DNA of 35,258 nt from Alphaproteobacteria bacterium (GTDB lineage: Bacteria; Pseudomonadota; Alphaproteobacteria; Rhizobiales; Beijerinckiaceae): NCBI GenBank assembly GCA_021325385.1, contig JAJPHH010000144.1, positions 1-35,258 on the forward strand, in the 5' to 3' direction. Shown one piece after another: positions 13,477-19,851 of this stretch. Position 1 is the stretch's first letter; each line of letters begins with the position of its first letter. The notes under the pieces were generated by a model. That model saw only the letters and a program-made list of their open reading frames with translations, had not been told where the DNA came from and searched no databases. The position numbers and the translations under genes were made by a program.

Positions 13477-16400
13477 TCACGCCAAATCCGCCAACATGCC
13501 TCGCGACGCCGAGCGGAGCAGCCGTTTCCTCGCCTCCCATTCGCTTGCGGCGTCGAGCTCGATCAGCGCCTCGACATTGCCGCCGACCAGCGCGGCGGCC
13601 GGGACGCCGTCGCGATAGACGATCCGATTGCCGGTCAGCGCTGCGATTCGGGCGCCCGGCGTGACGATCCCGGCGAGGTTCAGCGGGTCCGCCGCCGAGA
13701 GCGAGATCCATTGGCCGGAGGCCGGCTTGCGTCGCATGTCGCGCATCAGCCCGATCGCCTCCGGCAAGGCGTATTGCTCGCCGGTGAAGCCGGCGACGAA
13801 ACGGCCGCCGCGAATTTCGCCGCGCGCCTCAAGTCGGCGGTACACGCCGACGAGATCGCGCCAAGGCGGCAGCCAGCCCGCCTCGCGCGCCAGCAATCGC
13901 CAGAACACGACGCCGTAGCGCTTCAGCAGCGTGCGCGCGACATGCTCGATCGCGGCGGTTTTGATTTGCGGGTCGGCCCCGTCCGGGGTTCGGCGGACCA
14001 GGGACCAGCGGCCGGCGCTCTCCATGCCGAAACCGAGAATCTTGCCGCGCCGCCGCGCGCCGGCGATCGGCTTGCGGCGTTCGGACGGAACCAGCAACGC
14101 GCGCAAGCCGCCGAAACTATCGGAATTGACCAAGCCCAATGAAACCAGTTCGCCGAGCGCTTCTTCAAGCTGCGGCCGCAATAGGCGGGCCGCGTCCGCC
14201 AATTCGTCGAAGAACAGCGCGCCGTGGCGGGTAAGCGAATCGAGCGCGGCTTCGGCTTTCGGACTCGGCCGAAACTCAGTCGCGGGTCGGGCGAGCGCCA
14301 TCCAGAGCGGCATGCGCCTTCGCTCGAGCAGCGCGATCGGCGCGGTGCGGACCGGCGCGACGGCCCGGCGGCCGGCGCCTGCCGCCGAAGGCGTCAGCCG
14401 CGTCCAGGCGACCTTGCCGGCGAGGCATTGCGCGTCGAGAAAGCCCGTCTCGTATTTCGCGACGCGAGCCGGCAGGATCTCCGTTTCCCAAGCGCTGGCC
14501 GGCGCCTCGAATCCTTCCAGCAGGCCGAGGGCGACGCTCATCGCCGCCTCGCCTTCGAGCCGCGAGTCCTCGCTCACGCGTTGCCATGAAAATAGGAATC
14601 GGAGGAAATCGCGCGGCGCGACGGGCTCAATCTCGGCGCGTAGCCGTCGAATCGTGTAGTGATGAATGCGAGCGAGGAGGCGACGGTCGCACCATTGCTC
14701 GGCGTTGAGGCCGGGTACAAAACGGCCGCGCAGGATCGAGCCTTCCGCCTCCAGGGCCAGAAGCGCGGCGTTGAGAGCGTCCGGCTCGAGGCCGAGCGGC
14801 GCGGCGAGCGCCGTCTGCGTCGCCGGGCCAAGGCCTTCGAGCCGGCCGCGGATGATTTCGACGAGCGCTTGATCCGCCGACCAGACCGCCTGAGCCTGAT
14901 CCGCCGGCGGCGCGATAGTCGGCTCCAGCTTGGCGTGCGGCCAGATCGCCTGGACCTGGTTGAGGCGTTCAGCCGCGACCCAGAGCGTCGCCTGCGGCGC
15001 TTTCAGCCGCGTTGCACGCTTGGCGTTGGCGAGCGCTTCAAGCCAGCCGGGCCAGTCGCGCGCAGCTTTGGCCTCCTCCTCGGTCAGGCAGCCGAGCCAT
15101 AGCAAAGCGTCGTGCAACTCTTCGGCGTCGGCCGGCTCGGGCCATGCCTCAGCGCGGACGCGCTCGATCGCGTCCTTGTCGAGTCGGCCGAGATCGGCGG
15201 CGCTTTCCGGATCGAGCCAGCGCCGGGCCATGACGGCTTGCGTGCGCCGTTCCTCCAGCGGCGCATCGTCAAGAAATGCGTAAGGCCGCGCCGACAGCAC
15301 TTCCAGCGCCAAGGGCGAAGCCTGCGTCAAATCGCAGGCGACGATGCGCACGTCGCCGGCTTCGATCCGCCTGAGCAGCCGCTCCAGTCCGTCAATATCC
15401 ATCGCCTCGTGCAGGCAATCGTCGATCGCCTGATTGGTCAGCGGGTGATCGGGCACTTCGCGTTCGCCGACGAGGTTTTCCGCGCAGGCGATCTGATCAG
15501 GAAAGACCGCGGCGATCAGGTCCTCGGCCTGCATCCGCATGAATTGCGGCGGCACTTTCTTGCCGGCCCGATAGCGCGGCAAAGCCAGCGACGCGCTCGC
15601 CACCCAGCGCCAACGCGTGGTGAACATCGGCGAATCCAGCATCGCCTGGATCAGCACGTGGCGGACGCTGTTGGAATGGAGGTAGCGCGCGACCTCGCCG
15701 AGGTCGAAACTATGCGCCGTGGTCAGCGACAGGACGATATTGTCCTCGGTCGCGGCCGCCTGAAGCTCGAAATTGAACTTCCGGCAGAAGCGCTTGCGCA
15801 GCGCGAGGCCCCATGCCCGATTGATGCGGCTGCCGAAAGGCGAATGGACGATGAACTGCATGCCGCCGGCTTCATCGAAGAAACGCTCGAAGACGATCGT
15901 CTCTTGCGTCGGCAGGCAGCCGAGCGCGCCCATCGCGGCGGCGAGGTACTCGACGAGTTGCGCCGCCGCCGGCTCGCCGAGCCCGAGTTCCCGCATCAGC
16001 CAGGCGCGCGCCGTCTCGCCCGAAGAGTCGGCTTTCAGCTTCTGCGCGATCGCCTCGCGCAGCCGCGAGACGGCGGCCGAGAGCTCGTCGGTGCGGCCCG
16101 GCGCTTCGCCGAGCCAGAACGGAATGGTCGGCGGCTGACCCTGCGCATCCTCGACCCGCACGGCGCCACGCTCGACGCGCAAGATACGGTATGAGGCGTT
16201 GCCAAGCAGGAAAATGTCGCCTGCCATGCTTTCGACGGCGAAGTCTTCGTTGACGCTGCCGATGACCTGATTTTCCGGTTCGAGCAGCACTTGGTAGTCG
16301 GCGGTGTCCGGAATCATGCCGCCGGAGGTCAGCGCGGTCGTACGCGCGCCGCGTCGGCCGCGGAGCATGCGATTGATCGCGTCGTAATGCAGGAGCGCGC

Positions 16401-17907
16401 CGCGCCGGCCGCGCCGGGTCGTGAAGCCTTCGGCGAGCATGCGGATGGCCGCGTCGAACTCTTCGCGTTTGAGATCGCGATAGGGCCAAGCACGGCGATA
16501 GCGCGCGTAAAGCTCCGCCTCTGGCCAGTCCTGGGCGGCGACTTCGGCGGCGATTTGCTGCGCCAGCGCGTCGAGCGGCTGGCGCGGGATCGCGAGGCGG
16601 TCGAGCTCGCTGCGGCGGACGCTGTCGAGCAAGGCGGCGCATTCGACAAGATCGTCGCGCGATAGCGGGAAAAGGCGCCCTTTCGGCGTGCCGCCGACGG
16701 CGTGACCGGAGCGGCCGACCCGCTGCAGGAAAGCGGCGATCGAACGCGGCGAGCCGAGCTGGCAGACGAGGTCGACATCGCCGATATCGATGCCGAGCTC
16801 CAGCGAGGCGGTTGCGACCAGCGCTTTGAGCTCGCCGTTCTTCAACCGCCGCTCGGCGGCGAGGCGATGCTCCTTGGCCATGCTGCCGTGATGGGCGGTC
16901 AGAGCCTTTTCGCCGAGCCGCGCCGTCAATTCATGCGCGACGCGCTCCGCCATCCGTCGCGTATTGACGAAGACCAGCGTCGTCCGGTGCCCTTCGATGA
17001 GCCGGGCGAGCTTGTCATAGACCAAACGCCAGACGTCGGCCGACATCACGGCTTCGAGCGGCGCCTCGGGGACTTCGATGGCAAGATCGCGCTCGCGCTG
17101 ATGGCCGGTGTCGATAATCGCCGCTTCCGCCGCCGGCGCGCCGTCAGGCGCCGCGCCGACTAAAAGATGAGCGACCGAGGCGATCGGGTTCTGCGTCGCA
17201 GAAAGTCCGATGCGCAAAAGCTTGTCGCCGCAGAGCGCGGCGAGGCGCTCGAGCGACAGGCTCAAATGCGCGCCCCGCTTATTCGGCGCAACGGCGTGGA
17301 TTTCGTCGACGATCACCGCGCGCGTCGTCGCCAGCATCTTGCGGCCAGACTCCGAGCCGAGCAGCACGTAAAGCGATTCCGGCGTCGTCACAAGAATATG
17401 CGGCGGCTTGCGGCGCATGCGCTCGCGCTCGGCGGCGGGCGTGTCGCCGGTGCGGACCACGGCGCGGATTTCGACGTCAGGGAGGCCCAAGCGGAGCAAT
17501 TCCTTGCGGATGCCGGCGAGGGGAATGTCGAGATTGCGATGGATATCGTTCGACAGCGCCTTGAGCGGCGACACGTAAACGACCTGCGTTTCGTCCTTAA
17601 GCTCGCCGTCGAGACCTTGTCGGACGAGATCGTCGATCGCCGCGAGAAAGGCCGCCAGCGTCTTGCCCGAGCCGGTCGGCGCGGCGATCAACGTGTGGCG
17701 GCAGGACTTGATCGCCGGCCAGGCTTCGCTCTGCGCTCGCGTCGGCGCGGCGAAATGGCGCGCGAACCAGGCCGCGACCGCCGGATGGAAGAGCGTCGAT
17801 AACGGCGAATCGGCCGCGATCTGCGTGGCGACGCGTGGGCGCCTGGGCGCGCCCGCCCGCCCGCCGGAACGGGCCTTCTCAAGCACAGGGTGGCCGGATT
17901 GTCGCAC
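13477..17907 (-). CDS. lhr: Large helicase-related protein Lhr (SF2 DEXH-box)
   Basis: A 1476-residue ATP-dependent superfamily 2 helicase, 3'-5' on DNA and DNA/RNA hybrids in studied homologues. Motifs run in order: Q-type region TRAQSEAWP (about 56), Walker A APTGSGKT (76-83), [10 protein letters not shown], motif II DEIH (about 197), SATQNP (motif III), [35 protein letters not shown] and QRVGRSGH (motif VI). The long C-terminal part contains winged-helix and Lhr-CTD modules. The length matches full-length bacterial Lhr (about 1500) rather than the ~850-residue ligase-associated short form. GTG 17907 has GAGGAG just upstream. No ligase, nuclease or phosphoesterase partner adjoins it. Confidence 0.95.
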
Positions 17908-18045: not shown

Positions 18046-18486
18046 CTACTGGGCCGCCTTCTGATGTTCGGCAAGGCCGATCGCCTTGTAATCGTAAGTC
18101 GGATAGAATTCGGTTCGATAGGCACCCCAGGCGGTGTCTTCGAGCACGCGGTTGACTTCTCGCAAGCGCGAAGCCGGCAGGCGAAGGGTAATCACCTGGC
18201 CTATGCCCATCATCACGTACCAGCTCACGACCTCGACGCCTGGCGGCGGAAAGGCCTTGTAGAAGCCCTGTTTGGCGAGCTGAGCGTCCAACTCGCCGAG
18301 CGGCCGCGACTGGTCGTGCTTGAGAAAGATCGTCAGCAGAATGGCGTTGTCCGGCGTCGCTTCGGCCGTGCTCGCCGGCGGCGCGCTCTGCGCCTGGGCC
18401 TCGCTGACAGAGGCTACGGCAAGGGCGAGAGCCGCGGCCCGTACAAAGAGACGCAACCCGCCAAACAAACCGAACGAATGGGCCAT
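18046..18486 (-). CDS. Conserved secreted hypothetical protein
   Basis: A 146-residue protein with a clear signal peptide (about residues 1-33, hydrophobic core RAAALALAVASVSEAQAQS). The mature part has ILLTIFLKHDQSRPLGEL, FPPPGVEVVSWYVMMGIGQVITLRLP and WGAYRTEFYPTYDYK. I recall this as a conserved periplasmic hypothetical family in alphaproteobacteria with no known function. ATG 18486 has GAGGAG 8 bases upstream. It is divergent from the DUF763 gene; the LexA-type box in between is 59 bases from this gene's start, so it could also be affected. Confidence 0.8.
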   Translation of the reverse strand: MAHSFGLFGGLRLFVRAAALALAVASVSEAQAQSAPPASTAEATPDNAILLTIFLKHDQSRPLGELDAQLAKQGFYKAFPPPGVEVVSWYVMMGIGQVITLRLPASRLREVNRVLEDTAWGAYRTEFYPTYDYKAIGLAEHQKAAQ

Positions 18487-18544
18487 CGAACCGATCTCCT
18501 CGCCGCACCGGCGAGAGGCTAGCTCGCCAGCGGCTTTTCTGCTA

Positions 18545-18559
18545 GAACATTAAGGGAAC
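18545..18559 (+). promoter_or_regulatory. LexA (SOS) box upstream of DUF763 gene
   Basis: The sequence GAAC-ATTAAGG-GAAC is an exact GAAC-N7-GAAC, the reverse complement of the alphaproteobacterial LexA target GTTC-N7-GTTC. It ends 17 bases before ATG 18577, a normal place for an SOS operator. No clear -35/-10 pair was recognised around it. Confidence 0.7.
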
Positions 18560-18576
18560 ATTTTCGTGAGGTCTCA

Positions 18577-19851
18577 ATGGCGCGGCGCGCTGGAACCGCC
18601 GATCTTCCATTGCATGGCGGCCGCGTGCCGGCCTGGCTCGCCGAGCGCATGACGCGCCTCGGCGCGGTGATCTGCGAGGCGATCGTCCATCATTACGGCC
18701 GCGACGAGTTGCTGCGCCGGCTCGCCCATCCATTCTGGTTCCAGTCCTTTGGCTGCGTCATGGGCATGGACTGGCACTCGTCCGGCATCACCACCAGCGT
18801 GCTCGGCGCGCTCAAACGCGGGCTTCAACCGCTTTCCGGCGAACTCGGTCTCCATGTCTGCGGCGGCCGCGGCAAACATTCGCGCAAAACGCCGCAAGAG
18901 CTGGCGGCCGTCGGCGAAAAGGTCGGCCTCGACGGCGCCGCTCTCGCCACGGCCAGCCGGCTTGTCGCCAAGGTCGACAGCGCCGCGGTGCAGGACGGGT
19001 TCGAGCTTTACCTGCATGGCTTCATCGTCGCCGACGACGGCCATTGGGTCGTGGTCCAGCAGGGCATGAGCGACGAGCGGGGCCAGGCGCGGCGTTACCA
19101 TTGGCTGTCGGAAGGCCTAAAAAGCTTCGTCGAGGAGCCGCATGCCGCAATCGAGGGGCAGGCGCAGGGCGAGATCGTCAATCTCACCGATCGCCGCGCG
19201 GCCGCCTCGCGCCGCGGCCAGGTCGAGATGCTGGAAGCGCTTGGCCCGGATCGGATCGTCGCCGAAGTCGCAGCCCTGGCGCGCGCGACGCAGCCTTCGC
19301 CGGCCGCCGAGGCGCAGCCGCTTCTGCCGCATCTGATCATGCCGGCTCATCATGACGTCCGGCCCAAAGACGTATTGGCGCGGCGCCTGCGCGGGACGCT
19401 GGCTGCGGCCGCCGAATGCGGGCCGAAAGACTTTTCGGACTTGTTGCTCGCGCCCGGCGTCGGCGCGCGCACAGTGCGCGCCTTGGCCGCGGTCGCCGAG
19501 GCGATTCACGGCGCGCCCTATCGATTCAGCGATCCGGCGCGCTTCTCGCTCGCCCTTGGCGGCAAAGACCGGCATCCGTTTCCCGTGCCGTTGCGCGTCT
19601 ACGATCAGACGATCCAAGTTCTGAAATCGGCGGTGCAAAAGGCCAAGCTCGGCCGGGACGAGGAGCTGGGCGCGTTGAAGCGGCTCGACGGGCAGGCGCG
19701 GCTGCTCGAGCGCAGCGCGTCAGGGCCGACCCTCGACGAGCACATCGCGCAAGAGCGGCGCGAGTCTCACCGCTATGGCGGCCGCAGCGTCTTCGGCTGG
19801 GAGACGCCGCCCGAGGCCGACAGCGACGGACGCACGGCGCAAACGGCGTAG
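18577..19851 (+). CDS. DUF763 protein, probable SOS-regulated DNA-processing factor
   Basis: A 424-residue member of the DUF763 family, found in archaea and scattered bacteria, with no established function. Family hallmarks are RAGTADLPLHGGRVPAWL at the N-terminus, GCVMGMDWHSSGITTSVLGALKRGL, HVCGGRGKHSRKTP, and a middle segment with HWVVVQQGM and YHWLSE. Around residue 290, FSDLLLAPGVGARTVRALAAVAEAI resembles a helix-hairpin-helix, the non-specific DNA-binding motif of repair enzymes. A LexA-type box lies 17 bases before ATG 18577, and GTGAGG lies 5 bases before it. DNA repair or recombination is an inference from these two observations. It ends 3 bases from the convergent glcF gene. Confidence 0.88.
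   Translation: MARRAGTADLPLHGGRVPAWLAERMTRLGAVICEAIVHHYGRDELLRRLAHPFWFQSFGCVMGMDWHSSGITTSVLGALKRGLQPLSGELGLHVCGGRGKHSRKTPQELAAVGEKVGLDGAALATASRLVAKVDSAAVQDGFELYLHGFIVADDGHWVVVQQGMSDERGQARRYHWLSEGLKSFVEEPHAAIEGQAQGEIVNLTDRRAAASRRGQVEMLEALGPDRIVAEVAALARATQPSPAAEAQPLLPHLIMPAHHDVRPKDVLARRLRGTLAAAAECGPKDFSDLLLAPGVGARTVRALAAVAEAIHGAPYRFSDPARFSLALGGKDRHPFPVPLRVYDQTIQVLKSAVQKAKLGRDEELGALKRLDGQARLLERSASGPTLDEHIAQERRESHRYGGRSVFGWETPPEADSDGRTAQTA

Follow-up and report, generated by a model that had tools for sequence, protein, structure and literature searches.

Two described systems lie closest to the locus considered here. The first is the alphaproteobacterial LexA regulon, whose established motif is the direct repeat GTTC-N7-GTTC, as given in passages of three papers (PMC3323433, PMC8565304, PMC12700426); the sequence-only reading of this DNA had relied on that motif and was right to do so. 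A Caulobacter LexA box, GTTCttgttatGTTC, is published in a passage of one of them (PMC12700426). The second is bacterial NHEJ, with its components Ku and LigD. DUF763 itself is a family of archaea and bacteria, which a survey of domains from 2005, in its passage on the family, lists in rhizobia, Bradyrhizobium, Xanthomonas and archaea and to which no function is given there (PMC554113). In the literature that we searched, with most subscription journals outside its scope, neither a function of DUF763 nor a link to SOS was found.

The window, that is, the whole analysed stretch of 35,258 nucleotides, carries on its plus strand, at 18577..19851, a gene for a protein of 424 aa. The protein matches PF05559 over the whole model (1-319 of 319; 409.7 bits against a curated cut-off of 35.5; E 1.1e-122), so the gene had been correctly assigned to DUF763, and it is the single PF05559 match in the window's genome. 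An exact GTTC-N7-GTTC match, the LexA-type operator GTTCCCTTAATGTTC, is located on the minus strand at 18545..18559 and reads GAACATTAAGGGAAC on the plus strand. The gap between this site and the DUF763 ATG at 18577 is 17 bases, just as the sequence-only reading had described it for GAAC-N7-GAAC. Genes of the alphaproteobacterial SOS regulon are expected to have such a site no more than some 100 bases from their start, and it is this location, less than 100 bases from the start codon, that makes the window site notable. The host encodes LexA, with the box GAACACAGCATGAAC upstream of lexA, and boxes also stand before vsr, dinB and rmuC, while the recA box has one mismatch; the same operator is thus present at recognised SOS genes of this genome. 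By eye we also noted a possible extended -10 element, TGCTAGAAC (18540..18548, plus strand), which overlaps the first half-site and recurs ahead of the L126, L066 and L270 boxes; a consensus scan of this region reported no sigma-70 promoter. A repressor at 18545-18559 would cover such an element.

We propose that the DUF763 protein is an SOS-induced factor of double-strand-break repair, repressed by LexA and acting beside Ku/LigD, and we regard this reading as reasonably probable. LexA would bind GAACATTAAGGGAAC over the DUF763 promoter and repress it, and DNA damage, through RecA-stimulated cleavage of LexA, would release DUF763. The protein would then help to repair broken DNA by binding or trimming its ends, most likely alongside Ku/LigD. 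Its Asp/His/Gln-rich N-terminal domain would be the catalytic part, and the C-terminal part, which resembles a helix-hairpin-helix, would make the DNA contact. The components of this proposal are of different strength: LexA control of DUF763 is, judging from the promoters compared, very probable, while a role beside end joining is plausible and put forward more tentatively.

Orthologous loci were taken from public genomes (80 loci, the 80 best-scoring among 577 relatives), from the window's family (47 further loci; 48 of 199 genomes DUF763-positive), from the order (60 loci from 63 further positive genomes, with the fragmentary G260, G511 and G535 left out; 64 of 397 genomes positive, the window's included) and from plasmids (four records, L240-L243, including one Legionella and one haloarchaeon). 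Together with the window this gave 192 loci, from which L160, L273 and L274 were dropped for an incomplete N-terminus. The 189 loci with an intact start formed 74 clusters at 85% protein identity; some genomes were present twice among the loci, and the clustering absorbs these duplicates. Nine further loci, from elsewhere in the class and the phylum, entered the matrix scan, which thus covered 80 clusters from 198 loci; L275 (39.6% identity, with an uncertain start and no visible box) and one cluster with fewer than 300 upstream bases were left out. In five genomes (G198, G260, G497, G535, G556) DUF763 has an in-frame stop or lies in separate pieces. These broken genes may be due to decay or to breaks in the assemblies, and they would point to a gene that is lost now and then.

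If DUF763 acts in the repair of breaks, then we can ask: How is it placed with respect to the genes of end joining? The flanks were searched at 196 loci in 82 clusters, and Ku was detected within about 6 kb of DUF763 in six of these clusters: L034, the Mesorhizobium group of L035 (10 of 30 loci), the L148 group (L155), the L151 group (L317), L244 and L270. Chance would give 0.2-0.5 Ku-linked clusters (Poisson P 6e-8 to 1.4e-5), with Ku densities approximated from the same genomes, and since 118 of the 196 loci have 5 kb of sequence on both sides, the adjacency may be undercounted. The arrangements differ. At L064, L109 and L270 ku is divergent from DUF763 and adjacent to it, and at L151 and L317 it lies directly downstream with LigD beyond. 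At L244, LigD and a further match, LigD-like but weak (23% identity), lie upstream, with a LexA box in the gap before DUF763; at L270 a box lies between the divergent ku and DUF763. The shared neighbourhood is found across genomes and is not seen in the window's genome, whose three Ku matches are all on contigs other than that of DUF763. One of the called ku starts in this genome has an exact box, GTTCTTGATACGTTC (C36:13784-13798, L031), about 98 bases before it.

Co-occurrence was also found across genomes. In the order, Ku is present in 40/40 DUF763-positive and 12/40 negative genomes (P 3.8e-12), where the sample consisted of 40 of the 63 positives in list order, each with the next free negative, and phylogeny was handled by genus counts and a size band only. 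Among genomes of 4-7 Mb the counts are 27/27 and 8/25, by genus 19/19 and 5/24, and among genomes with a completeness of 90% or more and a contamination of 5% or less 39/39 and 12/31 (P 2e-9). In the window's family Ku was found in 37/48 positive against 68/151 negative genomes (P 1.1e-4), or, by genus and counted by hand, in 16/17 against 14/26 (P 0.006). Two other kinds of gene were counted in the same 80 genomes of the order: photolyase has no link with DUF763 (27/40 positive, 32/40 negative, P 0.31), and DEAD_assoc (Lhr-type) helicases have a small one (40/40 against 34/40, P 0.03). The DNA-repair role that had been suggested for this protein thus gains independent support from Ku/LigD linkage and co-occurrence, and on these comparisons the association puts double-strand-break repair first among the ideas on what DUF763 does.

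A LexA-controlled DUF763 might instead belong to some other damage-tolerance or nucleic-acid pathway unrelated to end joining, with the Ku link a consequence of mobility or of lifestyle, namely that of soil bacteria with large genomes and plasmids. The Sulfolobus control genome, which has a DUF763 match and no Ku match, would fit such a pathway, as would the lack of a Ku match in 11 of the family's 48 DUF763-positive genomes, the 230 plasmid records that hold DUF763 and the diversity of its immediate neighbours. We nevertheless consider it rather unlikely, for the Ku link persists within the 4-7 Mb band and by genus, photolyase from the same genomes does not behave in this way, and Ku adjacency occurs in six separate clusters.

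The neighbours deserve a closer description. A conserved operon was rejected, since the immediate neighbours span 149 Pfam families, the most frequent of which was seen in 3 of the 129 proteins considered, a subset of 159 neighbour proteins picked by a home-made ORF chooser, with the longest and some short ones omitted. The window hinted at a partnership with an Lhr-type helicase, whose gene (1476 aa; DEAD, WH_Lhr, DEAD_assoc and WH4_Lhr domains) occupies 13477..17907 on the minus strand. This was rejected too, because no relative of the helicase was found at the other 198 DUF763 loci searched, and DEAD_assoc was discarded as a marker of such a link, being nearly universal (74/80 genomes of the order). 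On the plasmid p42f of Rhizobium etli (L241), DUF763 is divergent from an annotated phospholipase D gene, relatives of which were found at 20 of the DUF763 loci searched. In Sinorhizobium meliloti DUF763 is carried by pSymB. A phage or mobile-element gene was likewise rejected: 50,697 phage records contained no DUF763 at E<=1e-3, and viral contigs gave none in a scan for close relatives, but DUF763 does occur in the 230 plasmid records mentioned above. An anti-phage defence function was set aside with no PADLOC match.

The preferred reading, an SOS-induced repair factor, depends further on the operator being real. Taken alone the motif is at chance level and proves little, because the window of 35 kb has one exact site where shuffled windows average 1.0, and the whole genome has 135 exact GTTC-N7-GTTC sites against 151 for the reversed-pattern control. 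The spacer of the window site is also unremarkable (24 of 100 genome sites score at least as high against the recA spacers, these being the 100 listed of 135). With a matrix built without any DUF763 box the site scores 13.4 bits, which is under every training site (minimum 16.7). Within the window's genus the expectation of the sequence-only reading that close orthologues would share the box held in part: the exact box was found in three of seven orthologues (the window, L126 and L129) and is missing in the other four. The chance-level counts, the spacer and the four orthologues without an exact box would agree with a chance match and a DUF763 gene that is not SOS-controlled here, a possibility that we consider highly improbable in view of the orthologous promoters.

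The element TAGAAC-ATT-N4-GAAC is common to the DUF763 promoters of the window, L126, L129 and L066, and among these four the half-sites are kept while the spacer varies, as predicted under selection on the half-sites. The scan of orthologous promoters, as proposed in the sequence-only reading, found the motif recurring. Between -100 and -15 an exact GTTC-N7-GTTC occurs in 36 of 189 loci and in 22 of 74 cluster representatives, with 0 for the reversed pattern; the longer stretch from -300 to -101 has it in 2 of 74 clusters. In total, 37 exact sites lie in 16,254 bp of DUF763 promoter, where 0.52 would be expected from the rest of the same loci (55 sites in 1,706,987 bases; the loci are not independent).

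The matrix gave the same picture. Its training set consisted of recA boxes of the same family and of SOS-type boxes from the window's genome, at lexA, vsr, dinB and rmuC, at a radical-SAM gene and at three members of an unnamed family; no DUF763 box was included. At 9 bits or more, a box was found at -100..-1 in 31 of 80 clusters, against 1 at -200..-101, 0 at -300..-201 and 0 in shuffles. With the threshold at 6 bits there are 33 proximal boxes, 4 in the two distal stretches together and 3 in shuffles; at 12 bits these numbers are 22, 1 and 0. Among the 31 boxed clusters, L158 and L132 are doubtful, as their half-sites are poor and they may be false, and the box of L095 overlaps the called end of the upstream ORF. 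The boxes are placed from -95 to -17, most of them between -25 and -57; that of Neorhizobium galegae (L105/L106), for example, is GAACGTTTGCAGAAC at -57. As a set, the spacers of exact boxes are nearer to the recA spacers than those of genome sites are (P 1.6e-5; 24 boxes against 100 listed of 135 genome sites, the recA boxes being from the same family). By this comparison with orthologues the window site stands clearly above chance, the chance match is rejected despite the level of the motif alone, and the LexA control of DUF763 suggested earlier is supported.

The operator is kept at orthologous promoters more than chance would allow, though patchily. At 9 bits, 49 of the 80 clusters have no box. 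The Mesorhizobium, main Rhizobium and Sinorhizobium meliloti clusters are among those in which none was detected; the Neorhizobium group is boxed. Outside the order, the box is exact in L281, L284 and L290, has one mismatch in L278, L279 and L280, and is absent from L276, L277, L288 and the Legionella copy. The boxes are dispersed across the gene tree and differ from one another in spacer and orientation. A quickly built tree of 78 proteins, 32 of them boxed at 7.5 bits, requires 21 changes of the box label where shuffles require 24.9 (30-32 of 500 shuffles gave a value as low; 40 of 75 inner branches are poorly supported). Since the label needs this many changes, the boxes do not represent one inherited promoter, and the operator has been gained and lost many times.

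To which gene does the box belong? Where a neighbour was called in boxed clusters, the upstream gene is co-directional with DUF763 in 15 of 24 and divergent in 9, and in a further 7 boxed clusters no neighbour was called; because of the co-directional majority we consider that the box serves DUF763. In the window, a divergent ORF of 146 aa (18046..18486, minus strand), with no Pfam or NCBIfam match, starts 59 bases beyond the box on its other side and could share the operator with DUF763. That the box serves this ORF and not DUF763 is, in spite of that short distance, extremely improbable, as no relative of the ORF was found at any of the other 198 DUF763 loci searched, and the box accompanies DUF763 even where the upstream gene is co-directional, in the 15 of 24 boxed clusters counted above.

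Other LexA-type boxes were observed elsewhere in the window's genome. An AT-rich one, GTTCTCTATTTGTTC (C2:82815-82829, L005), is located shortly before a Cas_GSU0053 gene, and judging from this box the CRISPR operon may be under SOS control. Four further genes, L017 (C21:17373), L196 (C98:9171), L199 (C105:14616) and L203 (C126:18173), start near an exact GTTC-N7-GTTC, with called starts 9-53 bases from the first base of the box; the true start of L199 is probably later, because its called ATG lies inside the box. The N-terminus of L017 is akin to those of L199 (42% identity) and L203 (33%), and to that of L196 by eye only. L017 has a weak AHH-nuclease match, and none of the four matched NCBIfam or PADLOC. 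They possibly represent a LexA-controlled paralogous family.

At the level of the protein, conservation is concentrated in an N-terminal block, residues 65-176 (18769..19104, plus strand), as judged from an alignment of 13 rows in which a haloarchaeal member, a Legionella member and a divergent member from the alphaproteobacteria were included. The block contains the motifs DWHSSG, SRxTP, D134, QDG, YxH, QQGM and ARRYHW. The invariant residues in these 13 rows are D65-W-H-S-S-G70, S102, R103, T105, P106, D134, Q139-D-G141, Y145, H147, Q161-Q-G-M164 and A171-R-R-Y-H-W176. Because many of them are polar, the alignment suggests that DUF763 is more likely an enzyme than a plain DNA binder, with the block as a candidate active site. 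Residues 111-217 also have a sub-threshold match to DUF6918 (PF21893; E 7e-4 with the whole protein, 2e-4 with the N-terminal part).

The helix-hairpin-helix-like stretch that had been noticed in the protein is present as sequence, at residues about 286-310 (19432..19506, plus strand), and contains LLLAPGVGARTVRALAAVAEAI. Its identity as this domain fared less well: the Pfam HHH model reported nothing at E<=10 against fragments of the window protein. The only PF00633 match came from the archaeal relative L243 (E 0.01) and did not reach the curated cut-off; a low-confidence model places a helix at 286-290, a turn, and a helix at 297-310, with pLDDT <50 over the stretch. A helix-hairpin-helix in DUF763 is thus weakly supported. 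The two AlphaFold models were poor (mean pLDDT 41 and 50), and a Foldseek search against the PDB and viral models returned nothing at E<=0.001. By sequence, no solved relative of DUF763 was found; the single match of a profile search of PDB sequences (E 2.5) was judged to be due to chance.

Going further, one may imagine DUF763 as a DNA-end-processing enzyme of an unmatched fold, shared with archaea, that in Hyphomicrobiales has been linked to Ku/LigD end joining and placed under LexA repeatedly and independently, as a damage-induced third component of bacterial NHEJ. We offer this wider picture as speculation and consider it doubtful. For the DUF763 of archaea and bacteria the proposal nevertheless provides a concrete hypothesis, damage-induced double-strand-break repair, the first in the literature searched. 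If it is true, bacterial end joining, of which few parts are listed, would gain one more protein, and SOS and end joining would seem to be coupled in these bacteria.

How, then, does the locus compare with known systems? As far as sequence comparison reaches, the operator, its recurrence at orthologues and the association with Ku are established. The window DUF763 has the direct repeat of the alphaproteobacterial LexA regulon at a short distance from the start, and the Caulobacter box given in the passage cited above ends like that of the window (PMC12700426). Unlike that regulon, the box at DUF763 is carried by only part of the orthologues. With bacterial NHEJ, DUF763 shares a recurrent gene neighbourhood and a strong co-occurrence in Hyphomicrobiales; it differs in having no Ku or ligase domain by Pfam in the window protein and in its presence in Sulfolobus alongside no Ku match. 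Within DUF763 of archaea and bacteria, the window protein is a full-length member, and its motif blocks are invariant as far as the haloarchaeal relative, with which it shares 43% identity.
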